Assembly: GCF_900107995.1 (NCBI RefSeq)
Contig: NZ_FNUM01000001.1
Span: 445,695-509,694, forward strand
DNA length: 64,000 nt
Source: Alcanivorax sp. DSM 26293
GTDB taxonomy: Bacteria > Pseudomonadota > Gammaproteobacteria > Pseudomonadales > Alcanivoracaceae
Reading direction: 5' to 3'
The notes below the pieces were generated by a model. It did no database searches. It was not told the DNA's origin and saw only the letters and a program-made list of their open reading frames with translations. Shown here one piece after another: positions 22,201 to 62,289 of the stretch. Numbering within the stretch: position 1 is the stretch's first letter; each line of letters starts with the position of its first letter. The translations under genes were made by a program, and so were the position numbers.

Positions 22201-22820
22201 TGTCACTCTACGAAGATACGCTGTTCCCGGTATTACTGGATTGGGCAACCCGTCCGGTCTACCGGGATCGCGAGCGGATCATCGGCCAGGCCCGGGGACG
22301 TGTTCTGGAACTGGGGGTCGGCACCGGCAGCAACTTTCCTTTCTATGGCGATGCGGCCACAGAGATCCACGGCATCGAACCGGCTCAGGCGCTGTTAACG
22401 CTGGCGCAGGAAGCGGCCAGCCAGTGTGCGCGGCCGGAGCGGTTTGTGTTGCGAACCGGTGATGCCCAGCAACTTCCCTACCCGGACCACCACTTCGATA
22501 CCGTGGTCGCCTGCCTGGTATTCTGCACCATCCCGGATCCGGAGCGGGCCGCCGCAGAGGCCTTCCGGGTACTCAAACCCGGCGGCACCCTGCTGGCACT
22601 GGAGCATGTACTCAGCGAACGTCGGTGGGTGCAGCGCCTGCAAAAAGGCATGAACCCGGCCTGGAAGCACCTGGCCTGCGGCTGCCAACTCACCCGTGAT
22701 ACCGCCAGCATCTTCCGTGGAGCCGGTTTCCGCCTGCACAAGGCCAGCCACCGCCGCCACCCGAAACTGCCCGCCTTTGCCGGGGAGTTGCTTGACGGGG
22801 CGCTGCTGAAACCCAGTTAA
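22200..22820 (+). CDS. Class I SAM-dependent methyltransferase (UbiE-like)
   Basis: The 206-residue protein has a Rossmann methyltransferase core: motif I VLELGVGTGSNFPFY (about 35-49), GIEPAQALL after strand 2, FDTVVACLVFCTIPDPERAAAE as motif post-II, and RVLKPGGTLLALEHV as motif III. The substrate is unknown; small-molecule or quinone methylation is typical. TGATG overlap couples it to the exported protein. Its last codon (AGT, Ser) and stop (TAA) lie inside the first 7-bp unit of a heptad-repeat element, so the natural C-terminus may have been replaced. Confidence 0.88.
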   Translation: MSLYEDTLFPVLLDWATRPVYRDRERIIGQARGRVLELGVGTGSNFPFYGDAATEIHGIEPAQALLTLAQEAASQCARPERFVLRTGDAQQLPYPDHHFDTVVACLVFCTIPDPERAAAEAFRVLKPGGTLLALEHVLSERRWVQRLQKGMNPAWKHLACGCQLTRDTASIFRGAGFRLHKASHRRHPKLPAFAGELLDGALLKPS

Positions 22821-22962
22821 AAGTTCAAAGTTGAAAGTTCAAAAGCGCGAGACAACGCTTGGTGCGCTGCTATGCCATGCCCGCGCTCAAACCCATGAGC
22901 GCGGAGAGTGAGGCTCCGGGAGGCGGCACCCCGGAACGCGTTTAAACTTTGAACTTTCAACT
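22815..22962. repeat. Heptad-arm inverted repeat element A
   Basis: The left arm (22815-22842) is four tandem 7-mers of type AGTT(A/C/G)AA; the right arm (22942-22962) is three such units in inverted orientation. A 15-base stretch AGTTGAAAGTTCAAA (22829-22843) is perfectly inverted at 22948-22962. Inside, CCGCGCTCA (22881-22889) pairs with TGAGCGCGG (22896-22904). The element lies between the methyltransferase stop, which it supplies, and the histidine kinase gene, whose promoter follows directly. Confidence 0.8.
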
Positions 22963-23008
22963 CACCCGACGGGACAAACTGCCACACCCACTCGCGGCAC
23001 TTTGCCTT

Positions 23009-23021
23009 TACAATAGCCCCA
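23009..23021 (+). promoter_or_regulatory. -10 element placed for leaderless start of the RegB-like gene
   Basis: TACAAT at 23009-23014 ends six bases before the ATG at 23021, so transcription would begin at or next to the start codon. No ribosome site precedes the ATG, which agrees with leaderless translation. A weak -35 cannot be fixed with certainty. Confidence 0.45.
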
Positions 23022-24211
23022 TGGATAACCGCCCCCCCTTACTGAACTGGCGACTGCGCCTGATATGGCTGCGCAGTCTGTTGGTGCTGATCATTACCCT
23101 TGCCCTGATGGTGCTGCAAAGTCAGGGGCATAGCGGCTATCGCCTGAATGAGCTGGGTTGGCTGGCGGCCTTGCTGCTGCCCAGCCTGATTACATTGCTG
23201 TCACACCGGGTGGGTCGCCAGCGCCACGCTCCGCTGCTAACACTGGAACTGGCCCTGGATACGATCCTGTTTACCGGCCTGATCCAGGGGTTCGGCGGCG
23301 CCGGCAACCCGCTGTCATTCTATCTGCTGGTCCCCGCCCTGCTGGCCTCGCTGACCCTGCCACTGAGAAGCGGAATGCTGGTGGCCGCCCTGGCACTGGG
23401 CGGCTATATGGTGTCCATGAGCTGGTATCAGATGCCGGCCATGGACAGCCCCCTTCATGCTCTCAGCCACCAACTCAGCGGTTTGCATGGGGTCGGCATG
23501 GCCGCGGTTTTTATCGCCCTGCTGGTCATGCTGACCTTGCTGGGACAGGTGATCCAGCGCCTGATGCGCCAACAGCAACGCCAGCAGGAGCAGGCCATTG
23601 ACCTGGCCGGTCGCCGCGAGCACATGTACCAGATCGCCGCGACCCTGGCTGACCAGGCCCATGAGCTGAATACCCCGCTGGGGACGCTGGTAATGCTGGC
23701 AGACAATCTGTTGCATTCGCCACAACTGCCCGGCGCGCTTCGTGATGAAGTGACACAGATGGAACAACTGGCAAGAAACGTGGCCCGACGCCTGAAACAG
23801 GGCGACGACACCCCGCTACCGGAATCCCTGCCTTTCAGTGAGCTGTTGACCAGGCTGCAACAACACCTTCGGCATCTGGCACCGACCCTCTCTGTGACCC
23901 ATCAACTGGATACCAACCCCAACGTGGCCAACCCGGAAGGCTGGTTCCGGGTCCTTTGCAACCTGGGTTATAACGCCATGGATGCCGGCGCCTCGCGACT
24001 GGCAATCACGCTGCATGACCGGGATCAGAGTTACCGCCTGCAAGTTAGCGATGACGGCCCCGCCCACGCCCCGTCGGAGCGGGAAGGCATGGGGATTGGC
24101 CTGACGCTGGTCAGCACCACGCTGGAGCAAATGGGCGCACACCTGGAAATGGAATTGGGACCTCGCTGGACCCAGGCTCGTATCGACTGGCCACGGGAGC
24201 TCGCCAGATGA
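23021..24211 (+). CDS. RegB/PrrB-family redox sensor histidine kinase
   Basis: A 396-residue membrane kinase. Six hydrophobic segments fill residues 13-180, including the quinone-linked loop GGAGNPL (92-98; family GGxxNPF). The phosphorylated His214 is in [13 protein letters not shown]; the N box is [13 protein letters not shown] and the ATP lid has SDDG and GMGIGLTLV. The redox-active cysteine of RegB, expected after the H box in the helix around residues 245-260, is missing here. It overlaps the regA-like gene by four bases. In relatives this pair controls respiration and carbon or nitrogen metabolism. Confidence 0.88.
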
Positions 24212-24777
24212 CTGTGCGCCAACTCCTGCTGGTTGAAGACGATGAGCCGCTGGCCGAACAGACCGCTCGCGCCCTGGAGCATCGTGGCAATCGTGTGGCC
24301 GTGGCCCACAACGCGGAACAGGCCCTCGCCCTGCTTGCCCGCTTGCCAGACCTGGCAGGCGCCATCCTCGACCAGAATCTGGGCAGCGACAACGGCCTGG
24401 ATCTGATTGTCCCGATCCTCGAACATTTCCCGGACTGCCGTATCATTCTGCTCACTGGCTACGGCAGCATTACCGCGGCGGTGGCGGCAACCCATCGTGG
24501 TGCCCGCAACTATCTCACCAAGCCCGCCAGCCCTGCTGATATCCTGCAGGCCCTGGATACCGACCCGGCCAACCCGGCCCTGCCCTTACCCGCCACGCCC
24601 CCGTCCCTGCAACGGCTGGAATGGGAGCACATCCAGCGCACCCTGGATGCCCATGATGGCAATATTTCACGGGCCGCCGACGCCCTGGGCATTCATCGCC
24701 GTACCCTGCAACGACGGCTGAAAAAGCGCCCTACCGCCAGTGACTACCAACGCGACAAGCACTTTCGCGAAGACTGA
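24208..24777 (+). CDS. RegA/PrrA/ActR-family response regulator
   Basis: The 189-residue regulator has a receiver domain with acidic pocket EDD (10-12), phosphoacceptor Asp55 in GAILDQNLG, Thr in LLTGYGS and Lys in LTKPAS. A short Pro-rich linker ([11 protein letters not shown]) leads to a Fis-type HTH ending in [21 protein letters not shown], the hallmark of the RegA subfamily. It overlaps the kinase gene (ATGA) and is its obvious partner. Possible targets cannot be read from this window. Confidence 0.92.
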
Positions 24778-24876
24778 CTGTCACAACTTGCCTTACACTG
24801 TTGGGCGAGTGGCAACATACCCAACCGGTGGGACACAGCATCAAATCCACATGCCGCCGGGAAACAGCGCACAGGG

Positions 24877-29600: not shown

Positions 29601-30089
29601 GGGCTGGATATCCGTGCCATCCGCAAGATACCCAGTGAGAACGTGGTGGTCGGGGTACAGCTCAGCGGCACCCTGCAGGCACCGGAAGCCAGCCTGTTCT
29701 CGGAGCCGGGCATGGAACAAAGCCAGGCCATGTCCTACCTGCTGACCGGCCGACCACTGGAAAGAGGCTCCAAAGGCGACAACAACCGCATCGCCCAGGC
29801 GCTGGCACTCTACGGCCTGGAAAAAGGCAGCGGCGTCACGGAAAAACTCGGGGACAAACTGGGAGTGGATGAAATCAGCGTGGGCAGCGACTGGGAAACC
29901 GACGATGCCGCCCTGATGCTGGGCAAACAGCTGTCTGACCGCTTGTACCTGACCTATGCGGTGGGACTGTTCGATGCAGTCTCCACCGTGATGTTGCGCT
30001 ACACCCTGACCCGACAGCTGCACCTGGAAGCCCGCTCGAGCACCCGCGCCAACAGCCTCGATCTGATCTGGGAGAAGGAGTTGCAGTGA
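26622..30089 (+). CDS. tamB: Translocation and assembly module inner-membrane protein TamB
   Basis: A 1155-residue AsmA-like protein with an N-terminal membrane anchor (residues about 12-38, LLGVLFSLILMVVLTTWLLLG), a very long repetitive beta-strand region forming a periplasmic groove, and the conserved C-terminal DUF490 domain (GTLQVNQQPQQPPQLNGELVIREGRYRAYG to LDLIWEKELQ). It starts with GTG overlapping the tamA stop. Its stop lies two bases before heptad element B. Confidence 0.95.
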   Translation: MIKRTLKRFSVGLLGVLFSLILMVVLTTWLLLGTATGNRWLLGQVSAWIPGDLQVEDWQGSLLDRVTVTGVHYQLDGVSVTLDRLEAELVPASLTRGWLEFTTLSLGDLRLSLPPDPKTEDTATAGLPDSLALPLGVRIDTLTLASLRLNDTQLVSGLDARQLAAWRRFQLASLTTRTVADISVEATAQGSLAAPMEIQGQARWQMPLAENETLNAQKAAGQLNIRGSLSTLILDHELSAPVQIHSQGEWQLADPERPLALEHQWPAQPLPLVLPQPLSVGDGRLTTRGPLATLQITGESRLSSGDKTVHLSLNSQLTHGGLALQQLQLDDGEQQLAGHGELQFSPLSWDLELEGKLDTGLLHPHFPGQLNVKGNSQGTHADGQWQLSPSRLELAGRVRQQPLTATTTVASRQQGLQLESNIRWGDNRLTGRGAILPDWSLDTTLALPRLDQLYPDIQGQLSGQVQIRGPLATPHLTGTLNGRQLGWQDWSLASLQTRFRALGPGAQTMMLELNTGTLQQGNSEQLATAQLSLNGTLADHRATARFRRDDVRLETGLRGSLVSLHNAPRWEGSLSDTSLVHAQLGRWQQSRDTSLVLSATEQSLSAFCLEQAPSQLCLEGKRDDANQVHVRASVDALPLALAGALLGPDFTVQGNLNGDASLQGPLENPAGQFQLQTDNARLAVRTPDTPQELVIEQLSMKGQLQDQRLTSELTLVSDLASANASLEHGLDANGPLSGQVAFQLTSLSPLALLTTDLREISGQVRGDFALAGTLRQPLMDGNIRLHNGSALVPALGVAVTNLQMDVQGSPRGQLDVNGSATLGEGTLTLTGTLDPREWPATVNLSLDGQRLRVADRPDARVLLNPSLTLKGDLDELQLGGKLTIPEAEIQPTELPEGAVTVSQDQVLVHQEGKQQSGLPLGIDVIVNLGDKVHFKGFGLDAMLGGTLQVNQQPQQPPQLNGELVIREGRYRAYGQNLAISDGQLIFQGPPDNPGLDIRAIRKIPSENVVVGVQLSGTLQAPEASLFSEPGMEQSQAMSYLLTGRPLERGSKGDNNRIAQALALYGLEKGSGVTEKLGDKLGVDEISVGSDWETDDAALMLGKQLSDRLYLTYAVGLFDAVSTVMLRYTLTRQLHLEARSSTRANSLDLIWEKELQ

Positions 30090-30091
30090 AT

Positions 30092-30288
30092 AGTTTCAAG
30101 TTGAAAGTTGCAAAGCGCGATCCAGATTGGTTGCCATGCGATAGACCCTTTAGCCGCGCCGCAAGGCAGTTTTTTACTGGATGCCGGCGTCTGAAGTAAT
30201 CACCTTGACCGGTCATCGCGGGCACGGCCTAGACATTTCTGCCCTGCTTTTCTCGCGCTTTGCAACTTTCAACTTTGAACTTTCAACT
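30092..30288. repeat. Heptad-arm inverted repeat element B
   Basis: Left arm units at 30092-30112, right arm units at 30261-30288, in the pattern AGTTNNA. Twenty-three bases (30098-30120 against 30253-30275) form a perfect inverted repeat, including the shared AAGCGCGA that follows the heptads. The element fills the gap between convergent tamB and the thioesterase gene; the thioesterase takes its last codon (AGT) and TGA stop from the outermost right heptad. Confidence 0.85.
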
Positions 30289-30705
30289 CCTCGGCAGCGC
30301 ATAGGTTCCGGTCACATGGGCCACCATCTCGTCACTGCCTTCGCTGAACAGCTGCACTTCCAGCACGGCGGAACGCCGTCCCAGACGCAGAATCACCGCG
30401 TCGGCAATCAAATCCTTCTGTGCCGGGCGGGACAGGAAATTGATATTGAGGTTCTGGGTCACCGCCATTTCCACGCGACCCAGCTCGCCAAGAATCGCCG
30501 CATACATGGCCGCATCCGCCAGCCCCATCATGGTGGGGCCGGACAGGGTACCGCCCGGACGAATAGTGGACGGCCGGAACGGACTGCGCACCCGGGCACG
30601 TCGTTCGCCCACCGCTTCGACCCGCAGACCTTCCTCAGACGCCGCCGGCAATCCCTGATAGATCACGTCCTGTACTTCTTGTGCATTCAGCATATGACTC
30701 GCCAT
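30283..30705 (-). CDS. PaaI-type hot-dog thioesterase
   Basis: The 140-residue protein has the PaaI-family core: RPSTIRPGGTLSGPTMMGLADAAMYAAI, with Asp and neighbouring residues of the active site, and ITQNLNINF-like strands (AVTQNLNINFLSRP). Substrate unknown; acyl-CoA or aryl-CoA thioesters are typical. Start at 30705, or Met at 30693. The stop codon and final Ser lie in heptad element B. It is divergent from proS. Confidence 0.85.
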   Translation of the reverse strand: MASHMLNAQEVQDVIYQGLPAASEEGLRVEAVGERRARVRSPFRPSTIRPGGTLSGPTMMGLADAAMYAAILGELGRVEMAVTQNLNINFLSRPAQKDLIADAVILRLGRRSAVLEVQLFSEGSDEMVAHVTGTYALPRS

Positions 30706-30836
30706 TTAATTCTGGATACGGGGAGGATACGAAAGCCCGTGCAACAATCCCAGCAGCAATCATGATGGCTGGTGACAAGACGTCTTTGCCCCTAAAATAA
30801 CCGGCTTCAGCAATAACCGGTCAAAGACTGTCTCCT

Positions 30837-32549
30837 ATGCGCACTTCCCAGTACCTGCTTGCCACCGTCAAAGAAACCCCGGCCGATGCCGTTGTCATCA
30901 GCCATCAGCTCATGCTGCGTGCCGGCATGGTCCGCAAGCTGGCTTCCGGCCTGTACAACTGGCTGCCCACCGGCCTGCGCGTGCTGCGCAAGGTGGAGCA
31001 AATTGTCCGCGAGGAAATGGACCGTGCCGGGGCCCAGGAAGTGCTGATGCCGGTGGTTCAGCCCATGGAGCTGTGGGAAGAGTCCGGCCGGGCACCGGCC
31101 TACGGCCCGGAGCTGCTGCGGATTACCGACCGTCACAACAATCCCTTCTGCCTGGGCCCGACCCATGAGGAAGTGATTACCGACCTGGTCCGAAACGAGC
31201 TGCACAGCTACAAGCAGCTGCCGGCCAACTTCTACCAGATCCAGACCAAATTCCGGGACGAGATCCGCCCGCGCTTCGGCATCATGCGCTCGCGGGAATT
31301 CATCATGAAGGATGCCTACTCCTTCCATGCGGACATGGAATCCCTGGCCGCCACTTATCAGGTCATGCACCAGGCCTACTGCGCCATCTTTGATCGTCTG
31401 GGCCTGGACTACCGCCCGGTGGAAGCGGATACCGGTGCCATCGGCGGCGCCGCCAGCCACGAGTTCCACGTGCTGGCCGACTCCGGTGAAGATGATATCG
31501 CCTTCTCCGACAGCTCCGATTACGCCGCCAATGTGGAACTGGCGGAAGCCCTGGCCCCCGCCACTGAGCGCCCGGCCCCCGGTGCGGCCATGGAAAAGGT
31601 GGATACCCCCAACGCCAAAACCATCGAAGAGCTGGTCGCGCAGTTCGATCTGCCCATGGAAAAAACCGTCAAGACCCTGGTGGTGAAGGGGGCGGAGGAA
31701 GGCCAGCTGATCGCCCTGCTGGTTCGGGGTGACCACGAGCTGAACGATATCAAGGCGGAGAAGCTGGACGCCGTGGCTGCGCCCATGGAGTTCGCCAGCG
31801 AGGAGGAAATTCGCCAGGCCATCGGCGCCGGCCCTGGCTCCCTGGGTCCGGTGGGGCTGCCGATCCCCATTGTCATCGACCGCAGCGTAGCGGTGATGAG
31901 TGACTTTGGTGCCGGCGCCAACGAAGACGGCAAGCACTACTTCAACATCAACTGGGAACGGGACGTGGCACTGCCCCAGGTGGCCGACTTGCGCAATGTC
32001 GTGGAAGGCGACCCCAGCCCGGACGGCAAGGGCACACTGACCATCAAGCGTGGCATTGAAGTGGGCCATATCTTCCAGCTGGGCACCAAGTACTCCGAGG
32101 CTCTGGGCGCCAAGGTTCTGGATGAAAACGGCAAGTCCGTGGTCATGCCCATGGGCTGCTACGGCATCGGCGTTACCCGGGTGGTGGCTGCTGCCATTGA
32201 ACAGAACCATGACGATCGCGGCATTATCTGGCCGGCGGCCATCGCCCCCTTCCAGGTGGCCCTGGTACCCGTAAACATCAAGAAGAGCCCCCGCGAGCGG
32301 GAACTGGCCGAAAAACTCTACGCCGAGCTGACAGAGGCCGGCATCGAGGTGCTGTTCGATGATCGCGAGAAAGAGCGCCTGGGCGTGAAACTGGCCGACA
32401 GCGAACTGCTGGGCATCCCCCACCGCGTCGTCATCGCCGAACGGGGCATGGACAATGGGGTGCTCGAATATAAAGGGCGAGGGGATGCGGAGAATACCGA
32501 GGTGGCCATGGATGAAGTTCTAGCATTCCTGAAAGGGAAGCTGGGCTGA
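30837..32549 (+). CDS. proS: Prolyl-tRNA synthetase (bacterial type)
   Basis: A 570-residue class II synthetase with N-terminal [18 protein letters not shown], motif 1 region [15 protein letters not shown], motif 2 [21 protein letters not shown], an editing insertion (about 225-395) with [12 protein letters not shown] and [13 protein letters not shown], motif 3 [13 protein letters not shown], and the anticodon-binding C-terminal domain. A TAAAAT -10 near 30793 could serve it. The TGA stop is the first bases of heptad element C. Confidence 0.97.
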
Positions 32550-32709
32550 GTTAACAGTTAATAGTGAACAGTTAACAGCGACGCGCGCCAGCGCCTCGTA
32601 ACTAGAAACGCAAGAGGCCGCGCCCAAACCATGGGCGCGGCCTCTTTGCTTCCAGAACAGACAACGCTGTTCCGCGCCGCTGTTAACTATTAACTGTTCA
32701 CTATTAACT
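32549..32709. repeat. Heptad-arm inverted repeat element C
   Basis: Four tandem 7-mers of type AGT(T/G)AA(C/T) at 32549-32576 face four inverted units at 32682-32709; the arms share the AGCG end. The centre holds a perfect 15-pair hairpin, AAGAGGCCGCGCCCA (32612-32626) with TGGGCGCGGCCTCTT (32632-32646), likely a two-way transcription terminator. It lies between convergent proS and the DUF4062 gene, whose stop codons overlap its two outer edges. Confidence 0.88.
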
Positions 32710-33742
32710 AGATTTTTATAGACCGCTTTACCGCCATCACCTGGCTCATGGTGTTATCTCCGTGGGCCGTCAGCTGCCACAACGGCAGGCCGCGATTATC
32801 TTTCTCCGACGATTTGGCAATCAAGCCAAGCGCCCGCAGATGGATCTTGATCTGGTTGAACGCATGGGCAGCCAGCACCACGTTGCGCACCGCATGGGCA
32901 CGGGGGAAGTCCTGCTGCACATCGCCCAGAGCCTTGCGACCGATGAAATCTTCCAGCGCTTTCTGCATCACCGGTTCGGATGCCGGATTGAGCATCAGCG
33001 GAGCCACACAGGAGAACGCCTGATCCCAGCTGATCCGGGTGGTGACCATGGCCAGTTTGCAATCACCGCCTTCATAGACATTACAGGAGTAATCCAGCGC
33101 CACCAGATCGCCACCCCGGGACAGGGTTTTCAGCGGGGGCCGGGCCTGGCTCATGCTGTCTTCGCGTTCCTTTTCCAGCATCTCGATACGGGCTTTGAGG
33201 GCCTCGACCTCAGCCCCGCCGCCACCGATACCGGCCTGGTCTGCGCGCACCCAGCCGTCAGCTCGATGTTCCCGCATCAGATTGGGGATCACCTTGTGGG
33301 CCAGCTCTGCCAGACCGCTCTCCGTGGTCCAGCGAAAGCAGGCCACTTTCTCTTCCAGCAGGCGCACAAAATCATCCCGGCGCACCTGGCCATCGCGGGT
33401 GGGTTCCTGCTGGTCAGCGGGCAACATGGCAGGGTTATCATGGATAAAGGCGACAATGGGTTTGCGCTTGGTGGCGGCAAAGATATATTCGCGGTGCAGC
33501 TCACTGAGCCCCATGGGTGAGAGCGTGCCGTAGCGGCCACCTACGATCAGCACGAAATAATCGCTGGTTTCGATCAGTTTCTGGATCACCGGCAACAGGG
33601 TATTGCCATCCGCAGCGGAGCTGTCCAGACCCGTGGGAATCATGCCGTGCTCGATCAACGGCAACATCAATGCCTGGCGCGCCCCCTGCATATCGGGAAA
33701 GGTGGCACTGATAAAGACCTGGTAGCGTTTCGTCGCTGTCAC
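32708..33742 (-). CDS. DUF4062 protein with unknown C-terminal domain
   Basis: The 344-residue protein starts (GTG) with a DUF4062 domain: RYQVFISATFPDMQGARQAL, ETSDYFVLIVGGRYGTLS and LHREYIFAATKRKPIVAFI, a flavodoxin/TIR-like fold often fused to defence NTPases. A short coiled coil (AEVEALKARIEMLEKERED) follows, then a C-terminal domain ending in LRALGLIAKSSEKD and LWQLTAHGDNTMSQVM, which looks winged-helix-like. It is not fused to an NTPase. It is divergent from an orphan ParA gene; heptad elements lie beyond each. A stress or defence sensor role is inference. Confidence 0.75.
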   Translation of the reverse strand: MTATKRYQVFISATFPDMQGARQALMLPLIEHGMIPTGLDSSAADGNTLLPVIQKLIETSDYFVLIVGGRYGTLSPMGLSELHREYIFAATKRKPIVAFIHDNPAMLPADQQEPTRDGQVRRDDFVRLLEEKVACFRWTTESGLAELAHKVIPNLMREHRADGWVRADQAGIGGGGAEVEALKARIEMLEKEREDSMSQARPPLKTLSRGGDLVALDYSCNVYEGGDCKLAMVTTRISWDQAFSCVAPLMLNPASEPVMQKALEDFIGRKALGDVQQDFPRAHAVRNVVLAAHAFNQIKIHLRALGLIAKSSEKDNRGLPLWQLTAHGDNTMSQVMAVKRSIKI

Positions 33743-33795
33743 CCTGGGTACCTGTAGCGTCGAGTTCGGCCCTCGCGGGCACTTTTTGGCTGGCT

Positions 33796-33854
33796 ATTAA
33801 ACCGCCTGTGGGTCCTCATCACAACCCGCAGGACCTGACGGAGCCCCCCCCCCC
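33796..33854 (-). promoter_or_regulatory. Promoter of DUF4062 gene with upstream C11 tract
   Basis: Read leftward, TTGTGA (33824-33819) and TTTAAT (33801-33796) are 17 bases apart. A run of eleven C residues (33844-33854) lies about 20 bases upstream of the -35 box. Homopolymers of this length change by slippage and in other bacteria tune promoters; that is inference here. The gap 33743-33979 also must hold the parA promoter. Confidence 0.5.
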
Positions 33855-33979
33855 GATCGTGGGACATCCCAGCGGTTCATGCTAGCCTGAGCACAAACCG
33901 CTGCACCGGACAACTCACGGCGCCAGCACTAACAATCAATATCGTAGCGCTTTTTGTAAGCTTACAGGAATGGGACGCC

Positions 33980-34726
33980 ATGCAAACCATAGCCTTTTAC
34001 AACCTGAAAGGTGGCGTGGGCAAGACCGCCTCGGCCGTGAATGTGGCCTGGCATGCCGCGCGCTGGAAGCACCGTACCCTGCTCTGGGACCTGGACCCCC
34101 AGGGCGCCGCCAGCTTCTATCTGGGGGTGGATGACGGCGACGGCTACAAGGCCGGCAATCTGATCAAGGGCAAACAACCCATCGGTCGACTGAAACGGGA
34201 AACCCGCTGGAAGAATCTGGATGCCATCCCCGCCGATATTTCCATGCGCAACGCGGATATCAAGCTGATGGAAAACGGCGGCGCCAAGAGTCGCCTGAAG
34301 CAGCTGATTGCCCCCCTGGGGGAAAGCTACGAACTGGTCATTCTGGATTGCCCGCCCACCCTGAGCCCGATGGCCGAAAGCATCTTTGCCGCGGTGGATT
34401 ACCTGTTTGTCCCGGTGATCCCGACCCACCTGTCAGTGCGGGCCTATGAGCAGGTGCTGGACTGGCTGGCCAGCAAGAACGTCAAGAACCTCACCGTGGT
34501 GCCTTTTTTCAACATGGTGGACCGCCACCGGGACCTGCATGTGGAAATGCTGGTCAAGCGTCCCAAAAGCATGAAAGGCGGCCTGAAGACCTGGATCCCC
34601 TACTCCACCCATGTGGAACAGATGGGCGATCACCGCGCCCCGGTCGGCGAGTTTGCCCCCTACACCCCCTCCGCCCAGGCCTTCCGGGCCATGTGGTTCG
34701 AGATCGCAGGAAAACTTAAACTCTAG
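33980..34726 (+). CDS. Orphan ParA-family ATPase
   Basis: The 248-residue ATPase has the deviant Walker A KGGVGKTASAVN (residues 10-21), Walker A' DLDPQGAA, and Walker B VILDCPPTLSPM. No parB-like gene or obvious centromere repeat follows, so it is not a standard partition locus; lone ParA proteins position various cell structures. It ends with a TAG whose AG begins heptad element D. It is divergent from the DUF4062 gene, with which it may act. Confidence 0.9.
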   Translation: MQTIAFYNLKGGVGKTASAVNVAWHAARWKHRTLLWDLDPQGAASFYLGVDDGDGYKAGNLIKGKQPIGRLKRETRWKNLDAIPADISMRNADIKLMENGGAKSRLKQLIAPLGESYELVILDCPPTLSPMAESIFAAVDYLFVPVIPTHLSVRAYEQVLDWLASKNVKNLTVVPFFNMVDRHRDLHVEMLVKRPKSMKGGLKTWIPYSTHVEQMGDHRAPVGEFAPYTPSAQAFRAMWFEIAGKLKL

Positions 34727-34885
34727 TTGACAGTTGATAGTGGACAGTTGACAGCTCGCGATCTGGATTTCGTCTTTGCCTTAAACACTTGAGTCCGCGC
34801 CCTTGGTTTGGCCGCGTACTCAAGCGTTGAAAAAACAGAGAACCCTCTCGCGTAGCTGTCAACTTTCAACTGTCCACTGTCAACT
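34725..34885. repeat. Heptad-arm inverted repeat element D
   Basis: Four 7-mers of type AGT(T/G)GAN at 34725-34752 face four inverted units at 34858-34885. Length (161 bp) is identical to element C. The centre contains CTTGAGT and ACTCAAG flanking an imperfect CGCG-rich hairpin (about 34788-34824). It fills the gap between convergent parA and the acyl-CoA dehydrogenase gene; parA's TAG overlaps its left edge and the dehydrogenase's last Ser codon and TGA lie in its right outermost heptad. Confidence 0.88.
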
Positions 34886-36574
34886 GCCCTCCCACGGGTT
34901 TGCCCGCCGCAGAATCTCATCCAGATCCAGCCCCCGCGGCAGCGTCCCATAGTTTCGATCACCGTGCTCGCCCAGACGGGAGGCGATAAAGGCCTCGGCG
35001 ACTGCACCATTTCCGGCGGCCACCAGCTGGCTGGCCTGCAGGGTCAGGGACAGGCGATCGACGATGTCCCGGGCCCGGTATTCGGCCTCATCCATGTCCG
35101 AAAATTCACGCTTGAGCGACGTCACTGCCTGGTCAAGACGGCTATCACTGCCGGCGGTTTTCGCCAGCTCGGCGAACCACACCTCCAGCACCGCCGGGGT
35201 CTTGGCCAGGGCCCGTAACATGTCCAGGGCCTGCACGTTGCCGGAGCCTTCCCAGATGGCATTGATGGGCGCCTCGCGATACAGGCGCGCCATAATGAAG
35301 TCTTCGGTGACACCGTTCCCCCCCAGGCACTCCATGGCTTCATAGGCATGGAACGGGGTGCGCTTGCAGATCCAGTACTTGCCCGCCGGCAGACCTAACC
35401 GCAACAGCAGTTTCTCATGCTCATTGGCCGGGTCCAGGGTACTGTTATCCAGTGCCTCCCCCATGCGCATGGTAATGGCCAGGGAGCCTTCTACCTCCAG
35501 TTGCAAATCTGCCAACACGTTACGCATCAATGGCTGATCAATCAGGGTCTTGCCGAAGGCGGCGCGGCCCATGGCATGGTTCACCGCCTGAGCCACGGCC
35601 TGACGCTGACCGGAGGTGGAGCCCACCATGCAATCGAAGCGGGTCATGGCCACCATCTCGATAATGGCCGGTACGCCGCGCCCTTCCTCGCCGACCATCC
35701 AGCCCAGAGCGCCGCGCAGCTCGATCTCCGAGGAGGCATTGGAGACATTGCCCATCTTGTTCTTCAGGCGCTGCACCTGGATCGGGTTCTTGCTGCCGTC
35801 CGGACGCCAGCGGGGCACCAGGAAACAGCTCAGGCCGCTGTCGGTCTGGGCCAGCACCAGGAAGGCATCACACATGGGCGCCGAGGTGAACCACTTGTGG
35901 CCCACCAGTTCATAGGCTTCACCGGGGCCTTCCGCTGACACCGGGTAAGCCCGGGTGGTGTTGGCGCGTACATCGGAACCGCCCTGCTTTTCGGTCATGC
36001 CCATGCCGATGGTCAGCGCCTGCTTTTCCGTATGCGGCACATTACGGGGGTCATAGGCATTGTTGAGAATCTTCGGCAGCCATTCCTTTGCCAGCGAGGG
36101 CGTCAGCTTGATGGAGGGCACCGAGGCAAAGGTCATGGTCAACGGGCAGCCATGGCCCGCCTCCACCTGACCTTGCAGATAGCTCTGTGCCGCACGGGCC
36201 ACATGGGCACCCGGCCTGGGGTCTGTCCAGGGAGCCGAATGAATCCCGGACTCCAGACCCAGCGTCATCAGGCGATGGTAGGCCTCGTGGTACTTCACGG
36301 CGTCCACGCGATAGCCCTGACGGTCGTGGGAGAAGAACTGCGGCTTGTGCTCGTTGGCCAGGAAGCCCCATTCGATCACTTCCGCGCTGCCGGTTTTGGC
36401 TCCGTGGGCAGACAGGCGGTCTTCTGCCCACCCGGCTCCGTGGCGGCGCACCGCTTCACGCAGGGCCGTATCGTTGTCGTAGGCGTTGTAGTCTTCCAGG
36501 GCCCGGGCCTGGTTGAAGACCTCGTGGGTCTGGGCCAGCGGGTCCGGCTTCAGGTTATCGTGCTTGGCGGTCAT
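34880..36574 (-). CDS. AidB-like acyl-CoA dehydrogenase
   Basis: The 564-residue flavoprotein has acyl-CoA dehydrogenase signatures: GMGMTEKQGGSDVRANTT (FAD-binding), KWFTSAPMCDAFLVLAQ, and MECLGGNGVTEDF with YREAPINAIWEGSGNVQ holding the catalytic Glu region. The long N-terminal and C-terminal extensions match the AidB branch (E. coli AidB 541 residues), linked to alkylation stress, although branched acyl-CoA oxidation is equally possible. It lies 19 bases after a TetR regulator gene. Its Ser-stop end is supplied by element D. Confidence 0.88.
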   Translation of the reverse strand: MTAKHDNLKPDPLAQTHEVFNQARALEDYNAYDNDTALREAVRRHGAGWAEDRLSAHGAKTGSAEVIEWGFLANEHKPQFFSHDRQGYRVDAVKYHEAYHRLMTLGLESGIHSAPWTDPRPGAHVARAAQSYLQGQVEAGHGCPLTMTFASVPSIKLTPSLAKEWLPKILNNAYDPRNVPHTEKQALTIGMGMTEKQGGSDVRANTTRAYPVSAEGPGEAYELVGHKWFTSAPMCDAFLVLAQTDSGLSCFLVPRWRPDGSKNPIQVQRLKNKMGNVSNASSEIELRGALGWMVGEEGRGVPAIIEMVAMTRFDCMVGSTSGQRQAVAQAVNHAMGRAAFGKTLIDQPLMRNVLADLQLEVEGSLAITMRMGEALDNSTLDPANEHEKLLLRLGLPAGKYWICKRTPFHAYEAMECLGGNGVTEDFIMARLYREAPINAIWEGSGNVQALDMLRALAKTPAVLEVWFAELAKTAGSDSRLDQAVTSLKREFSDMDEAEYRARDIVDRLSLTLQASQLVAAGNGAVAEAFIASRLGEHGDRNYGTLPRGLDLDEILRRANPWEGS

Positions 36575-57690: not shown

Positions 57691-57719
57691 AAAAAAACCC
57701 GGCGCGAGGCCGGGTTTTT
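57691..57719. terminator. Terminator after grxD
   Basis: ACCCGGC (57697-57703) pairs with GCCGGGT (57709-57715), with long A and T runs on both sides, 20 bases past the grxD stop. Confidence 0.88.
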
Positions 57720-57738
57720 GTCAGACGCGACGACAGTA

Positions 57739-58071
57739 TCAGGCGTTGTCGTCGGCATCCACGGCGGCGCCGTCCACCAGCTCCTTGAGCTGACCGGAAC
57801 GGTACATGTCCATGATGATGTCGCAGCCGCCGACCAGCTCACCGCCCACCCAAAGCTGCGGGTAGGTCGGCCAGTTGGCATATTCCTTCAGGCTCTGGCG
57901 GATTTCCGGCGCCTCCAGGATGTTCACATAGGCAAACGGCTTGCCGACAGCGGTCATGGCTTCCACCACCTGGGCGGAAAAACCGCACTGGGGGAACTGC
58001 GGGGTGCCCTTCATGTAGAGGATCACCGGGTTCTTTTCGATCTGGTCTTTGATGACCTGGATAACATCCAT
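57739..58071 (-). CDS. grxD: Monothiol CGFS glutaredoxin
   Basis: The 110-residue protein has the CGFS active site in TPQFPQCGFSAQVVEAM, with YMKGTP (glutathione-binding Lys) and WPTYPQLWVGGELVGGCD. CGFS glutaredoxins bind and pass on 2Fe-2S clusters. It lies between a TonB receptor and a PepSY-type membrane gene on the same strand, a plausible iron-linked neighbourhood, though a terminator separates it from each. Confidence 0.95.
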   Translation of the reverse strand: MDVIQVIKDQIEKNPVILYMKGTPQFPQCGFSAQVVEAMTAVGKPFAYVNILEAPEIRQSLKEYANWPTYPQLWVGGELVGGCDIIMDMYRSGQLKELVDGAAVDADDNA

Positions 58072-58190
58072 ACTGACTACCTGGCGGTTTGGGGTGTATT
58101 AGCTGTGGTTGGCCACCATTCTACCACTGTTGGCCCTGCCCCTCCCAGATGGGGCCGTGGCATTCCCCCTTCAAGGGGCGCCACCAACAG

Positions 58191-58214
58191 AAAAGGGGGC
58201 CGAAGCCCCCTTTT
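58191..58214 (-). terminator. Terminator after the TonB-dependent receptor gene
   Basis: Read leftward, AAAAGGGGGC-TTCG-GCCCCCTTTT forms a stable tetraloop hairpin followed by T residues, about 20 bases after the receptor stop. Confidence 0.9.
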
Positions 58215-58234
58215 CCTTGCTACAGGCACATTGC

Positions 58235-60424
58235 TCAGAAGCGCACTTTCATGCCCAGGTAGCCGGTACGCGGCTTGTTGGGACGGGCGCCGGCGGGGTC
58301 ACGGGAGACGATTTCCTGATCGTCAAACACGTTATTCACCTTGGCATACACTTCCATATCGCTGTTCACGTGGTAAGTAGCCACCACATCCGCAATCACG
58401 TAATCGCTGGTGCGTTTGAAGGTGGTCACTTCGCCAGGACGGTCGCAGCTATTGTCGATGCACATACCCTCAGTGTGGCTGACAGACATCAGCGCAGACC
58501 AGGCCGCCGGCTTTTCCAAGCCGAAGGTCAGGCTGGCCAGATGCTCCGGCAGGTAAGGCAGTACATCGCCATCCAGCACAGACAGATCATCCGCATCCTT
58601 GGTGATTTCGCCGTCGGTATAGGTATAGGTCAGACGAACCGGAGCTTGCAGACCGCTGTCACCTTCCCAGACCACGCTATTCAGACCTACTTCCAGACCA
58701 CGAACCTCGGACTCACCAAAGCTTTGCGTGCCGGAATCGTTGCCATTCGGGCATGGATTAGCGATGGAGCAGTTCTGGATGGTGTTTTCATAATCGCTGT
58801 AGAAGGCGATCACATCCGCACTGAAGTTCTCGTTCCAATAGCGGAAACCGGTTTCGTAGTTAACGCTCTTTTCAGCATCGGTGCCTTTCTTGGAAGAAGC
58901 ACCCGCCGGAGCAAAGCCCTGATGCACACCGGCCAGAACAGACCAGTTGTCGTTAAGCAGCCAAGTGGCGCCCAGGCCGGCCATCAGTTCTTCGTTACGG
59001 TTTTCAGTACGGGCACTGACGGTGTTGCGAGCCGGATCACCCCAGCGCTTGCTCTTGCTTTCCACGTTCTCATAACGCAGGGAGCCGGTGACAATAAAAT
59101 CACCGATGTAGGCATGATCGATGATCCAGGCGGACATGGCATCGGCGTTTTCCAGACGGTTATCACCGCCGGTGGGCAGAGTGGACGTCTGGTACACCAG
59201 GCTGCCATTGCGCTGGTCAAAGGTGTCGGTGGGCTGATAGCGATCCACCTCATCCTGATGGTAACGGGCACCGACAATCAGGTCGTTGTCAACGGAACCG
59301 GTCTGGAAACGGTGGTTCAATTCAGTCTGCACGCCTTCGGAGACGTATTCACGATTATTGTTCTTGAATACCAGATCATCCGCATCGGCACCGCGCAAGA
59401 TCGCTTGCTTCGCACCTCCATTGGCGTTGGCGTCGGCCACAAAGCCACCAATGCCTTGCCCTTCGACGCTGGCCAGCTTGTACCAGTTACGGTTGAACTC
59501 GTTGCGGTACACCACGGAGTTCAACTGGGTATTCTCGTCAAATACCAGAGTATGACGCAGGGAAACCGCATCCCGGTCGTTGTCCATCTGATCGATGTCG
59601 CTCATGCCGTAACGACGGTTGGCATCACGCTCAAAATCACGGTCGGTCAGACCCAGATAGGTTTCGTCGGACACTTCACTGGAATGCTCCAGTTTCAGCT
59701 CAAACGCCTGCTGAATATCTGCCGTTTCCGGGGCCTGCCAGCGCAGCTTGGCGACATAGTCCCGCTTGTCGAAGCCGCTGTCGCGGTTGGAACGGTCAAT
59801 ATCCTTGAAACCCATGGTGCGCTGCTGATGGGCTTCCAGCATGAAGCCGAACTGGCCTTCAGTGGCACCATAGTAGGCATGGGCCCGCTGGGCACCGTCT
59901 TCACCGCCTTCCACATTGACCATGCCGGAGGCACGGGCAGGAATCGGGGTGGACAGGAAGTTAATGGCACCGCCCACGGTGAAGGGCCCATAGCGAAGGG
60001 TGTCCGGGCCTTTCAGTACCTCAATACCGTAGAAGCGACCGGCGCTGGGGAAGTAATAGGCAGCCGGGGCAGCATAAGGAGCAGGGGCGATCAGCACCCC
60101 GTCTTCCATCAGGGAAACCTTGCTGGAACGATCACGACCGGAACCACGGATACCGATGTTCGGACGCAGGCCGTAACCTTCCTCTTCCTGGAAGTAAACG
60201 CCGGGCACATCCCGCAGCATGCGATGCACATCGGTGTTTTCTTTTTCTTCCAGGTCTTCGTTGGAGAGCACGTGGGCAGAGCCACTAACGCTAAAGGTGT
60301 TCTGACGATCCCCGAGGATCTGTACCGGTTTCAGCTCATTGGCCTGATCGGCAAAAGCCGGAGCAGCCCCGGCGGCCACGGCAGACGCGATGGCACAGCA
60401 AAGCAAGCGACGCTGTAAATGCAT
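58235..60424 (-). CDS. TonB-dependent outer-membrane receptor (ferric siderophore/FecA-like)
   Basis: The start at 60424 follows AAGGAA; the product is about 729 residues with a signal peptide ending AAPAFA. The plug domain shows the region DVHRMLRDVPGVYFQEEEGYGLRPNIGIRGSG and ERYGP-type FTVGGAINFLSTP, followed by a 22-strand barrel with NVFDDQEIV and terminal GYLGMKVRF. Features of the plug resemble FecA and related ferric-chelate receptors. A Fur-box-like sequence and promoter lie upstream, so iron limitation should induce it. The ligand is not known. Confidence 0.92.
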   Translation of the reverse strand: MHLQRRLLCCAIASAVAAGAAPAFADQANELKPVQILGDRQNTFSVSGSAHVLSNEDLEEKENTDVHRMLRDVPGVYFQEEEGYGLRPNIGIRGSGRDRSSKVSLMEDGVLIAPAPYAAPAAYYFPSAGRFYGIEVLKGPDTLRYGPFTVGGAINFLSTPIPARASGMVNVEGGEDGAQRAHAYYGATEGQFGFMLEAHQQRTMGFKDIDRSNRDSGFDKRDYVAKLRWQAPETADIQQAFELKLEHSSEVSDETYLGLTDRDFERDANRRYGMSDIDQMDNDRDAVSLRHTLVFDENTQLNSVVYRNEFNRNWYKLASVEGQGIGGFVADANANGGAKQAILRGADADDLVFKNNNREYVSEGVQTELNHRFQTGSVDNDLIVGARYHQDEVDRYQPTDTFDQRNGSLVYQTSTLPTGGDNRLENADAMSAWIIDHAYIGDFIVTGSLRYENVESKSKRWGDPARNTVSARTENRNEELMAGLGATWLLNDNWSVLAGVHQGFAPAGASSKKGTDAEKSVNYETGFRYWNENFSADVIAFYSDYENTIQNCSIANPCPNGNDSGTQSFGESEVRGLEVGLNSVVWEGDSGLQAPVRLTYTYTDGEITKDADDLSVLDGDVLPYLPEHLASLTFGLEKPAAWSALMSVSHTEGMCIDNSCDRPGEVTTFKRTSDYVIADVVATYHVNSDMEVYAKVNNVFDDQEIVSRDPAGARPNKPRTGYLGMKVRF

Positions 60425-60477
60425 GTTTGTTCCTTCCCGACGCAAATGACAAAAATGTAAAAATCGTAAGCGCAGAG

Positions 60478-60521
60478 AAGATACAGCGAAAACGAATCGA
60501 TATCAATTCACTATCATTCTC
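60478..60521 (-). promoter_or_regulatory. Promoter and Fur-box-like operator of the TonB receptor gene
   Basis: Read leftward, GAGAATGATAGTGAATTGA (60521-60503) matches the GATAAT-hexamer layout of Fur boxes. It overlaps the -35 TTGATA (60506-60501); TATCTT (60483-60478) lies 17 bases further as -10. The hyuB stop codon lies within the start of this site. Confidence 0.7.
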
Positions 60522-62070
60522 ATTTACATTCCGTATCGCAATACCCTCCCCCACCGGGTGAAGCCACTACCAAACGATCACCGGCGCGAGCGGAAAAGCT
60601 GGTTTTCGGCGGCAATAACTCCCCGTTATGACGGTTTTCCCCCACCGCCCCATCCTGTCCCCCTGCCAGTCCCCAAGGTCCGTGACGGCGGCGCTCGGTC
60701 AGCAGGGTCACATGGGCATCGCCCAGGAATTCCAGCTCACGCACCAGACCATCACCGCCTGCAAACTGCCCTTCACCGCCACTGCCCCGGCGCAGCTGAT
60801 AGCGGTGCACCCTGAGCGGATAGTGGGACTCCAGACTCTCGATGGGGGTATTCAGGGTATTGGTCATATGGCTGTGCACCGCCGACAACCCCGGACCACC
60901 GGCATGGGCGCCAGTGCCCCCGGCCATGGTTTCGTAGTAATCCCAGCCATCCTCTCCGGCGGCGCCCATGGCCACATTGTTCATGGTCCCCTGGCTGGCA
61001 GCGGGAATCGCCTGGGGGGCAGCCTGGGCCAGCGCCCCCAGCACCACATCCACCACCCGGGAGCTGGTTTCCACATTGCCAGCCGCCACCGCCGCCGGAC
61101 GATTGGCATTCAGCAGCGAACCTTGCGGCGCGGACAAACTGATGGGCCGAAACAGGCCATCGCACGCGGGCACATCATTGTCCATCAGGCAGCGAAAGCA
61201 GTAATAAGCGGCGGCGGCGGCCACTGACAGCGGACAATTGATGTTGCCTGCCACCTGGTCAGCGGTGCCGGAGAAATCCAGGCTGGCCTGTTCCCCGGCA
61301 ATGGTCAGGGTGACGGCAATGACGATGTCCTGCTGACCCTGACCATCGTCATCCATGTAATCCCGGAACCGGTAACAGCCGTCCGGTAACGCTGCGATTC
61401 GGGCACGGGCCCGTTTTTCCCCATAGGCGTTGAGGGCATCGAAGGCAGCAACCAGGTCGGGCTGCTGTTCCGCCAGTTCTGCCAGACGCCGAGCCCCCGC
61501 CTCACAGGCGCTGGCCTGGGCGACAAAATCGGCAAACCGCCGGTTTTCCACCGGCAGCCCCCCGCTCTCATCCAGCCCGGCCAGGTGTCGACACAAAGGC
61601 ACCTGCCACTGTCCCGCCCGTTTCAGCCAGCTGGGAGCAATGACGATGCCCTCCTCCTCCAGATGGGTCGACACCGGCATGGATCCGGGACTGTGGGCGC
61701 CGATATTGGCGTGGTGAGCCCGGGTCACGGCAAAGCCGATCAAGGAGGATGCCTGGAAGACCGGGGCCACCACCGTCACATCCGGCAAGTGGGTGCCGCC
61801 CAGATAGGGGTCATTGACCACCAGCAGGTCGCCGGGCTGCCAATCCCGGCCACTGACCAGATCCGCCATGGCATAGGCCATGGACCCCAGATGCACCGGA
61901 ATATGGGCTGCCTGGGCACACAACCTGCCCTGTTTGTCGAAAACGGCGCAGGAGAAATCCAGGCGATCCTTGATGTTCGGCGAGAGGGCGCTGAGCCGCA
62001 GCACCGCCCCCATCTCGTCACAGATCCCTGACAGGCGGTTGGCGAAAATACTGAGCTGGACAGGATTCAT
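60520..62070 (-). CDS. Hydantoinase B/oxoprolinase-family protein
   Basis: The 516-residue protein matches HyuB subunits: IFANRLSGICDEMGAVLRLSALSPNIKDRLDFSCAVFD, AQAAHIPVHLGSMAYAM, PGDLLVVNDPYLGGTHLPDVTVVAPVF, and the C-terminal GGSGG-type end PRRGSGGEGQFAGGDGLVREL. HyuB normally works with HyuA in ATP-dependent opening of hydantoin or 5-oxoproline rings. No hyuA is next to it: directly upstream is heptad element E (beginning seven bases before the ATG). Whether it is functional alone is unclear. Confidence 0.88.
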   Translation of the reverse strand: MNPVQLSIFANRLSGICDEMGAVLRLSALSPNIKDRLDFSCAVFDKQGRLCAQAAHIPVHLGSMAYAMADLVSGRDWQPGDLLVVNDPYLGGTHLPDVTVVAPVFQASSLIGFAVTRAHHANIGAHSPGSMPVSTHLEEEGIVIAPSWLKRAGQWQVPLCRHLAGLDESGGLPVENRRFADFVAQASACEAGARRLAELAEQQPDLVAAFDALNAYGEKRARARIAALPDGCYRFRDYMDDDGQGQQDIVIAVTLTIAGEQASLDFSGTADQVAGNINCPLSVAAAAAYYCFRCLMDNDVPACDGLFRPISLSAPQGSLLNANRPAAVAAGNVETSSRVVDVVLGALAQAAPQAIPAASQGTMNNVAMGAAGEDGWDYYETMAGGTGAHAGGPGLSAVHSHMTNTLNTPIESLESHYPLRVHRYQLRRGSGGEGQFAGGDGLVRELEFLGDAHVTLLTERRRHGPWGLAGGQDGAVGENRHNGELLPPKTSFSARAGDRLVVASPGGGGYCDTECK

Positions 62071-62076
62071 AGAGGC

Positions 62077-62161
62077 AATTAACAGTTAATAGTGAATAGT
62101 TAATAACTAAAAACAGGACAACAGCCTACCGCTGTTAACTATTCACTGTTAACTATTCACT
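62077..62161. repeat. Heptad-arm inverted repeat element E (short form)
   Basis: Four tandem units of type A(G/A)T(T/G)AAN at 62077-62104 face four inverted units at 62134-62161, with only 29 bases between and no central GC hairpin. Unlike elements A-D it lies between divergent genes, its edge seven bases before the hyuB start. Confidence 0.82.
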
Positions 62162-62187
62162 GAATTGTGCGCTATTATCGACGGTTC

Positions 62188-62213
62188 CGGCAGCCTTCGG
62201 CTGCCGTTTTTTA
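62188..62213 (+). terminator. Rightward terminator or attenuator in the argD leader
   Basis: CGGCAGCC (62188-62195), TTC, GGCTGCCG (62199-62206), then TTTTTT. It is a strong intrinsic terminator facing right, 84 bases before the argD start, with no rightward gene upstream to end. It may insulate argD or act as an attenuator. Confidence 0.75.
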
Positions 62214-62261
62214 TTTGGGACGCGTACAGACGGTGCTGTGATCAACGGTCCGGTGCCCGTT

Positions 62262-62289
62262 ATCAATTCTCCATTATCGATTATCAATT
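62262..62289 (-). repeat. Solo four-unit heptad arm before argD
   Basis: Read leftward, four 7-mers of type AAT(T/C)GAT; the third deviates (AATGGAG), as does one unit in most arms of the other elements. No inverted partner was found between element E and this arm. It ends seven bases before the argD ATG, where a ribosome site would be expected. Confidence 0.65.

Follow-up and report, generated by a model that had tools for sequence, protein, structure and literature searches.

The DNA analysed here (the window) is a 64-kb stretch of Alcanivorax sp. DSM 26293, part of contig C7 in a genome of 3.7 Mb (G000). It contains palindromic elements whose inverted arms are built from tandem 7-bp units (heptads). 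A heptad-chain scan of both strands found exactly ten heptad arms, which pair into five elements (A to E), the same five that a preliminary description of the window had listed. The five-element observation is thereby confirmed. Ten Markov shuffles of the window gave no arm at even the lowest cut-off. Tandem Repeats Finder (TRF) reports period-7 or period-14 arrays at nine of the ten arms and at one solo array; the left arm of B was missed. At gathering score, Rfam matches in the window are tRNA only, and no element is matched.

The elements and their hairpins are assigned to neither strand. Element A (22815-22962, 148 bp) uses the word AGTTNAA in inverted arms at 22815-22842 and 22942-22962, and the stop codon of a methyltransferase-like open reading frame (ORF; 22200-22820) lies in it. 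Element B (words AGTTNAA and AGTTNCA; inverted arms at about 30092-30112 and 30261-30288) is 197 bp when counted from 30092 to 30288. A unit AGTGAAT at 30085 falls outside the limits given to B in the preliminary description. The left arm of B is irregular (AGTTTCA AGTTGAA AGTTGCA), and its neighbours are convergent TamB-like (+) and thioesterase-like (-) ORFs. Element C (32549-32709, word AGTTAAC, inverted arms at 32549-32576 and 32682-32709) occupies the whole gap between convergent proline-tRNA-synthetase-like (+) and DUF4062 (-) ORFs. Element D (34725-34885, word AGTTGAC, inverted arms at 34725-34752 and about 34858-34885) has two convergent neighbours, a ParA-like (+) and an AidB-like (-) ORF. 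The earlier claim that C and D have the same length, 161 bp, holds. The central hairpin of C is GC-rich (32614-32644, GAGGCCGCGCCC / GGGCGCGGCCTC) and is present in most copies of the word classes I-IV defined below; that of D is at 34784-34828 (AACACTTGAGTCCGCG ... CGCGTACTCAAGCGTT). Element E (62077-62161, words AGTTAAC and AGTGAAT) is an 85-bp short form in a divergent gap, upstream of hydantoinase-B-like (-) and aminotransferase-like (+) ORFs. The earlier claim that most arms carry an AGTG heptad is true of C, D and E (six of the ten arms); A has none, and the single AGTG unit of B is that at 30085. The proposed solo arm at 62262-62289 is detected as a TRF array (62260-62289, minus strand, AATTGAT-like, score 39). 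It falls below the arm cut-off of the heptad-chain scan and is at best a decayed arm.

A period control was run with a single detector on eight blocks from genomes of the genus (1,627,597 bases). At period 7 there were 58 inverted arm pairs and no direct pair, and at period 14, a multiple of 7, there were 44 pairs. Periods 6, 8, 9, 10, 11 and 12 gave 0, 1, 5, 0, 0 and 0 inverted pairs, respectively. The comparison set consisted of 80 named gammaproteobacterial loci (proS scan; 1,550,597 bases), one from Alloalcanivorax and the others from more distant genera, and a period-7 inverted pair was present in one of them. The named proS most similar to that of the window is from Alloalcanivorax balearicus (82%). 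At a looser detector setting the eight blocks yielded 88 elements, and the same blocks after one Markov shuffle each yielded zero. The arms are thus not chance low-complexity sequence, the outcome that the preliminary description had named as its own refutation: the shuffles are empty, and periods 7 and 14 are singled out.

Copies are about 160 bp long and usually have four heptads per arm. By heptad word, 129 copies were assigned to classes I (AGTKAAY, 30 copies), II (AGTKGAC, 14), III (ARTKAAT, 17), IV (ARTKGAT, 5), V (AGTTNAA, 24), VI (AGCTNCA, 9), VII (AGTTNCG, 11), VIII (GCCNGAY, 9), IX (3), X (4) and XI (3). In 36 aligned copies of classes I-IV, the order of the unit is heptads, AGC or AAC, CGCG, a spacer, the hairpin GAGGCCGCGYCC-N-GGRCGCGGCCTC, a spacer, CGCG, GCT or GTT, and inverted heptads. 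Heptad positions 1, 3 and 6 are nearly invariant in these copies (A, T and A). The varying positions are 4 and 7 in classes I and II, 2 and 4 in class III, and 5 in classes V and VI. Arm units were picked with regular expressions and their counts are descriptive: four units are commonest in classes I-V (109 of 180 arms), and two in classes VI and VII. The core of classes I-IV is present in 47 of the 66 copies of these classes, versus one of the 63 other copies. The predicted folds have -86 kcal/mol for C taken as RNA (z -11.7) and -42.8 for D taken as DNA (z -7.7). Eighteen of the 38 predicted hairpin pairs remain paired in one or more sequences in which both partners have changed.

Two possible properties of the arms were rejected as general explanations. 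A three-frame stop cassette is present in 34 of 34 class III arms, 9 of 10 in class IV, 38 of 60 in class I, 9 of 28 in class II, 12 of 48 in class V and 3 of 8 in class X, and in no arm of classes VI, VII, VIII, IX or XI. Since it is found in few arms of II, V and X and is lacking from five classes, it is not a general property. The words AGTTAAC, AGTTGAC, AATTAAT and AGTTNAA have no G-tracts, and therefore G-quadruplexes cannot generally explain the arms of four units. Perfect long AGCTAGA arrays of roughly 17-21 units are present in two relatives (G006, C1:35845-35991 and C1:63063-63209; G003, C12:29424-29542). A heptad-arm palindrome with a further word, TATTAGM, is present in an Idiomarina metagenome-assembled genome (L084:10276-10352).

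The genome search with a profile model that had been suggested for these elements was run with a covariance model, R1, made from 36 class I-IV copies. It reveals a large interspersed family with many further copies that vary between species. All 17 genomes of the genus have R1 matches, from 43 to at least 150 each with both strands counted, and in 15 of the 17 there are at least 93, which perhaps correspond to 45-75 loci per genome. R1 also matches all three genomes tried from the sister genus g3, and has no match in three genomes of the genera g2 and g4. Three consecutive AGTKNAH units without mismatch were found in 33 of 94 genomes. These are all 17 genus genomes, that of the window included (2 to 705 hits, fewest in G005 with 2 and G015 with 3), all 13 genomes of g3, and three further genomes with one hit each; no match was present in the 15 genomes that represent five further genera of the same family. 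AGCTNSA arrays are present in 17 of 17 genus genomes and 6 of 13 g3 genomes. The best R1 match of G015 is the weakest of the 17 (2.6e-12, versus 6.5e-31 or better in the other 16), suggesting that the elements have decayed in this lineage. A family of elements in all 17 genomes of the genus and in the sister genus is well supported. Like miniature inverted-repeat transposable elements (MITEs), they are short non-coding units with inverted ends and many dispersed copies in each of the 17 genomes.

Whole-unit copies at unrelated loci, a further property of MITEs, are also present. Copies at about C7:118197 and C7:579924 of the genome of the window, which are unrelated loci, are 92% identical across 167 bp; the likeness ends a few bases from the outer heptads, and the flanks are dissimilar. 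The copies at sites C and D resemble each other as well (90% in G010, 88.5% in G001). Elements are inverted in place at site C (G008 versus G012, 93.9%, and versus G002, 91%), at site 20 (G001 versus G006, 93.9%) and at site D (G003 versus G010, 94.9%). Both arms are found at site C in 15 of the 17 genus genomes, with words of class I in seven, III in six and IV in two, and at site D in 13 of the 16 genomes with placeable flanks (III in six, I in four, IV in two, II in one). In occupied copies of these two sites the word is always equal in both arms. Among 102 pairs of occupied orthologous sites from eight genomes, 41 share a word class and 61 differ. The different-class pairs have a median element identity of 0.64 (maximum 0.76) and a median flank identity of 0.81, and random different-class copies (mean 0.62, maximum 0.79) cover the values of these swap pairs. 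Site 27 carries AGTTCAA, AGCTTCA and AGTTNCG in three genomes, with three interiors, and at site D the elements of G002 and G008 are 0.96 identical, with flanks of 0.89 and 0.87. At site A, G009 and G007 have the same word as the window in both arms, G004 has AGCTNCA, and the gap is 23 bp in G016 and -3 bp in G005. Flank BLAST, which was of uneven quality, shows for 16 of 38 sites one or more relatives in which the gap is shorter than 70 bp and holds no element. Comparison of species thus supports mobility of the elements.

Much of this exchange could also be produced by ectopic gene conversion among fixed old copies, which would recombine at their common central hairpin and periodic arms and so overwrite one another. 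The high occupancy of sites C and D agrees with this, as do two mosaic copies. Site D of G012 (L167) has a left arm of AATTAAT (class III) and an adjacent right arm of AATTGAT (class IV), with an AGTTAAC-type arm further downstream, and site 23 of G008 has class V arms around a class I-IV core. The G012 hybrid suggests that recombination through the core also occurs. As the main source of the pattern, however, ectopic conversion is unlikely. Copies at unrelated sites share a tract that reaches the outermost heptads, with no similarity in the flanks; the core that would mediate conversion is found in just one copy outside classes I-IV, yet such copies swap with those of classes I-IV; and conversion makes no new sites, whereas the short element-free gaps just described occur at 16 of 38 sites.

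Of the 111 elements that could be scored, 103 have both arms in one word class; arms paired at random gave a mean of 16.8 such elements and a maximum of 29 in 1000 trials. The preliminary description had noted that the arms of one element share their word, which these counts bear out, and had attributed this to conversion within each copy. That explanation fails as a general cause. In a permutation test, own arms are no closer than expected in classes I (p 0.39), III (0.93), IV (0.63) and VI (0.53), which hold 61 of the 119 copies tested. An excess is seen in classes II (p 0.019), V (0.022) and VII (0.011) and is clear in VIII (p 0.001), and within-copy conversion may act in some classes. Since both arms have the same class and there is no own-arm excess in I, III, IV and VI, the concerted words appear mainly to reflect families. 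The differences in word are better explained by discrete families that would have spread whole and replaced one another at the same sites.

The same data bear on an origin in place, a form of the conversion proposed in the preliminary description, in which polymerase slippage in steps of 7 bases and template switching across the palindrome would homogenise each copy. The closer own arms of classes II, V, VII and, clearly, VIII fit such a process, and so do the variable arm lengths, the existence of long perfect arrays and the low likeness of orthologous elements of one class, which is about that of random copies of the class. The lack of own-arm excess in the four other classes does not fit, and copies at unrelated sites share spacers besides words. 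In addition, an arm has fixed and variable positions, which slippage would homogenise, an argument that is partly circular given that units were picked with regular expressions. We regard an origin in place as very improbable.

Genes were called with a simple purpose-made finder based on codon usage, and 87 of 88 copies could be placed relative to them. Of these, 37 are in convergent, 44 in co-directional and 6 in divergent gaps, compared with 214, 960 and 210 of 1384 background gaps. The convergent excess has a Fisher p of 6.5e-9, which treats orthologous sites as if they were independent; the 38 unique sites divide into 15, 21 and 2. Element sides that face a gene 3' end lie within -30 to +25 bp of that end in 99 of 118 cases, and 5'-facing sides in 11 of 56. 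The stop codon is within the element at 56 of the 118 3'-facing sides. Flanks are purine-rich toward the element, with fractions of 0.73 at gene ends and 0.70 elsewhere versus 0.56 ahead of stop codons generally. A test of the flanks for palindromy found none. The outer flanks of class I-V copies often end in GC.

This placement would be expected if the elements were fixed cis-acting hairpins at 3' ends, acting as bidirectional terminators or mRNA stabilisers under selection, and not mobile at all. Enrichment between convergent genes and the conserved hairpin, with 18 of its 38 predicted pairs kept through two-sided changes, are consistent with that. So is a viral contig, IMGVR_UViG_3300050821_004459 (L351:13156-13186), the only contig matching the pattern, which has the class I-IV core without heptad arms. 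Fixed hairpins would not, however, give rise to whole-unit copies at unrelated sites or to inversions. The pair changes track word classes and are not independent events, some copies occupy divergent gaps, and the terminator scan described below was negative at B, C and D. An explanation by fixed hairpins is therefore very improbable.

Another candidate is RAYT, a Y1 transposase. RAYTs are thought to move repetitive extragenic palindromes (REPs). PF01797 was searched for in 47 genomes, 20 regions were scanned for AGTT-type arms, and 14 neighbourhoods were read by eye. None of the 20 regions has an AGTT-type heptad arm adjoining a RAYT gene; a small number of elements occur at a distance of 2-9 kb. 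The neighbourhoods read by eye mostly have GTAG-type hairpins of their own. PF01797 has a hit in 16 of the 17 genus genomes, and the one genome that lacks it, G015, also has the weakest elements, as would be expected if RAYT mobilised them. This is one genome and no correlation, and genus g4 has RAYT hits and no arms. Mobilisation by RAYT seems to us a poor prospect, about as improbable as fixed hairpins. The elements were also rejected as REPs or bacterial interspersed mosaic elements moved by RAYT, since RAYT genes mostly carry separate GTAG-type hairpins and have no adjoining heptad arms. Nor are the elements CRISPR arrays, because each locus consists of two inverted arms of contiguous 7-bp units. 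The earlier view that they are neither CRISPR nor GTAG-type REPs is upheld. Short RAYT-type Y1 proteins of about 150 amino acids are encoded several times per genome, in the genome of the window at C7:226394, C7:230033, C13:372207 and C17:7746, and likewise in relatives (L061-L080).

Taken together, the elements are probably non-autonomous, MITE-like palindromes moved in trans by a putative enzyme that would read heptad arrays, and kept as hairpins at gene ends. The unit plan, the whole-unit copies at unrelated sites, the inversions in place, the word swaps and the location at gene 3' ends can be read from the sequences themselves; how the elements move and what they do at gene ends we infer. 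The head-to-tail heptads at each end would be the recognition site of a trans-acting transposase or recombinase with a 7-bp register, and a word class would correspond to a sub-family that has a specificity or a donor of its own. Elements would preferentially insert or survive right after stop codons, where they may do little harm. A hairpin behind a stop codon could end or protect transcripts. A site that came to rely on its hairpin would stay filled, and a later insertion, or ectopic conversion by way of the shared core, could replace its occupant.

Several observations weigh against movement by such an enzyme and retention at gene ends. Sites C and D are filled in nearly all relatives, and no clean empty site with alignable edges was obtained. 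In more than half of the different-class pairs (34 of 61) both members are from classes I-IV; these have a common core and reach 0.76, and the other 27 pairs have a median of 0.57. Same-class orthologous pairs have a median identity of 0.74, versus 0.73 for random same-class copies and 0.85 for flanks. Because they are no closer than random copies, same-class replacement or fast change in place must also be common, and the identities are compatible with fast change in place instead of swaps. Exact flank repeats of 2-4 and 6-10 bp around 71 copies are no more frequent than in permutations. Repeats of 5 bp are more frequent (3 of 71 versus 0.46 permuted; with one mismatch, 9 versus 3.0, p 0.002), mainly owing to orthologous copies at sites C and D. 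With each of the 38 site clusters given a single count, the figures are 1.66 versus 0.59 (p about 0.11). Since the excess fades at one count per site, a 5-bp target duplication is a hint only. Visual inspection of the five intervals of longest range between unpaired arms (at most 5 kb apart; 1.63 Mb of sequence of the genus covered) revealed no convincing transposase, and RAYT genes have no arms directly beside them. Divergent gaps hold 6 of the 87 placed copies. A simple terminator scan of 30000-35100 called none of the B, C and D cores. Of the features of an intrinsic terminator, these elements thus have the GC-rich hairpin without the terminator call, and a terminator role is suggested by position and hairpin only.

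Two observations touch on these searches. Some copies of sites C and D are flanked by the 5-bp direct repeats AAAGC and GCTCT. In the G008 block (194330-195703, about C1:2523530-2524903) an ORF of 253 amino acids, which we take to be NYN/LabA-like, is enclosed by two half-elements that have a single arm and a single core each.

By analogy, the inverted arms of tandem short repeats recall eukaryotic foldback elements. The Foldback and Galileo elements of Drosophila have long inverted arms of tandem short repeats; they are eukaryotic, transposase-linked and much longer. Insertion behind stop codons is also a property of the YPAL/RU-2 elements of Yersinia. Among mobile palindromes these are the nearest in size and place to the 161-bp copies at gene 3' ends described here, a likeness drawn from their descriptions. 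The accessible portions of the two reports describe YPAL/RU-2 as an intergenic palindrome of about 168 bp, with targets at or adjoining dyad symmetry and a proposed effect on the upstream transcript (PMC2229807, PMC2267715). It has target duplications of 3-26 bp; it differs in its internal inverted repeats, and no heptad arms are described in those portions. ERIC, other bacterial MITEs and BrickBuilt are likewise short, non-coding and dispersed, with inverted ends, in the parts consulted of PMC2229807, PMC10969869 and PMC4596501. The terminal inverted repeats listed there for bacterial MITEs are 4-24 bp, and TA ends are common (PMC2229807, PMC10969869). BrickBuilt of Porphyromonas also has a tandem array, of 23 nt, but as excerpted it is one internal array and not two inverted heptad arms (PMC4596501).

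Heptad repeats themselves are known from other bacteria. According to the available part of the report on Xanthomonas (Rehm et al. 2015, PMC4692102), heptamers GGGAATC or (GGGANTN)n, with positions 1-4 and 6 conserved and mostly four units, form 70 and 75 inverted pairs in two genomes. They are mostly less than 50 bp from stop codons or overlap them, are rare between divergent genes, and are read there as quadruplex-forming simple repeats. The Alcanivorax elements are similar in their tandem heptads, in four units being commonest (classes I-V) and in inverted pairs near stop codons, and one distant genome, G409, holds inverted GGGAATC pairs of the Alcanivorax plan. They differ from that account, as far as it was accessible, in being a two-arm unit with copying, swaps and inversion, and their words lack quadruplex-capable G-tracts and have other fixed positions. 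In marine Beggiatoaceae, and also in Cyanobacteria and Bacteroidetes, there are TAACTGA direct repeats, for which horizontal transmission was called possible while 'no mechanism is evident' (MacGregor 2015, PMC4679880, in the portions available). Tandem heptads and a patchy distribution over distant lineages are common to both systems, and the reverse complement of TAACTGA rotates to AGTTATC. The Beggiatoaceae arrays differ in being nearly all direct and upstream of start codons; those portions contain one inverted case and no two-arm element. They also state that, among long simple repeats, those of heptanucleotides were the commonest class in most genomes surveyed, and that a 7-nt slippage preference had earlier been proposed for them (PMC4679880).

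No paper describing the Alcanivorax elements was found in a literature search judged on titles and the beginnings of abstracts, and text queries with the heptad words gave an unrelated match only. The elements are not described in the parts seen of PMC2267715, PMC9788540 (small RNAs of A. dieselolei), PMC10969869, PMC4596501 and PMC4853749. An inverted heptad repeat was thus already known in another genus, Xanthomonas, from the part of that work available. What is new, as far as the literature search shows, is a mobile unit with two arms that is copied, inverted and exchanged for units with other words, together with the connection between lineages.

The same plan with other words recurs in five unrelated genomes. 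Selected stretches around heptad arrays in six distant gammaproteobacterial genomes have 12 inverted and 0 direct pairs. There are three in G409 (GGGAATC, in 200 kb), two in G383 (GTGAGGC and GGATTCG), one in G309 (GGGAATA/AGTGAAT), one in G265 (AGTTCAA), five in G418 (AGTGAAC/AGTTCCC and AAGGAGC) and none in 10 kb of G453. Three consecutive GGGANTN units are present in 20 of 370 genomes of the class and three AGTKNAH units in 17 of 370; many of these are plain tandem arrays.

It is conceivable, although we would not wager on it, that palindromes with heptad arms form a class of their own among bacterial mobile elements, spread across the Gammaproteobacteria, with same-word arrays in Cyanobacteria and Bacteroidota. 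The words would then be interchangeable codes for a diversifying enzyme with a fixed 7-bp register, families would compete for places behind stop codons, and Xanthomonas GGGAATC, Beggiatoaceae TAACTGA and cyanobacterial heptads would be arms or relics. Heptanucleotide repeats have no agreed cause; polymerase slippage, quadruplexes and translation control have each been proposed. In one genus, heptad arrays occur as the two arms of scattered palindromes, which apparently copy, flip and swap at gene ends; this offers a testable cause. The enzyme could be sought in Alcanivorax, a marine oil degrader rich in elements. If there is a protein that recognises tandem words of 7 bp, it would be of practical interest. 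Hairpin swaps between convergent genes would provide a natural experiment on the rewiring of gene ends.

Plasmids gave no whole-element match for C or D, and phages none for C; arms only were matched. An arm of D is matched at 29 of 30 bases on a Crinalium plasmid (L352), and plasmid arrays similar to the D arm are present in Nostoc, Calothrix, Annamia, Parabacteroides and E. coli. The array is directly behind a gene 3' end in three of the seven plasmid stretches read. Nostoc pNLP4 (L356) alone of the seven looks by eye like an inverted pair, and the detector did not call it. AGT[TG]GAC arrays that closely resemble the D arm, mostly single arms, are present in Cyanobacteria and Bacteroidota (L356, Nostoc pNLP4; L352, Crinalium; L353, Parabacteroides). 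Elsewhere in the window, at 12299-12486, tandem repeats of 12, 18 and 24 bp with a CGGCTTGGGCTC-like unit overlap.

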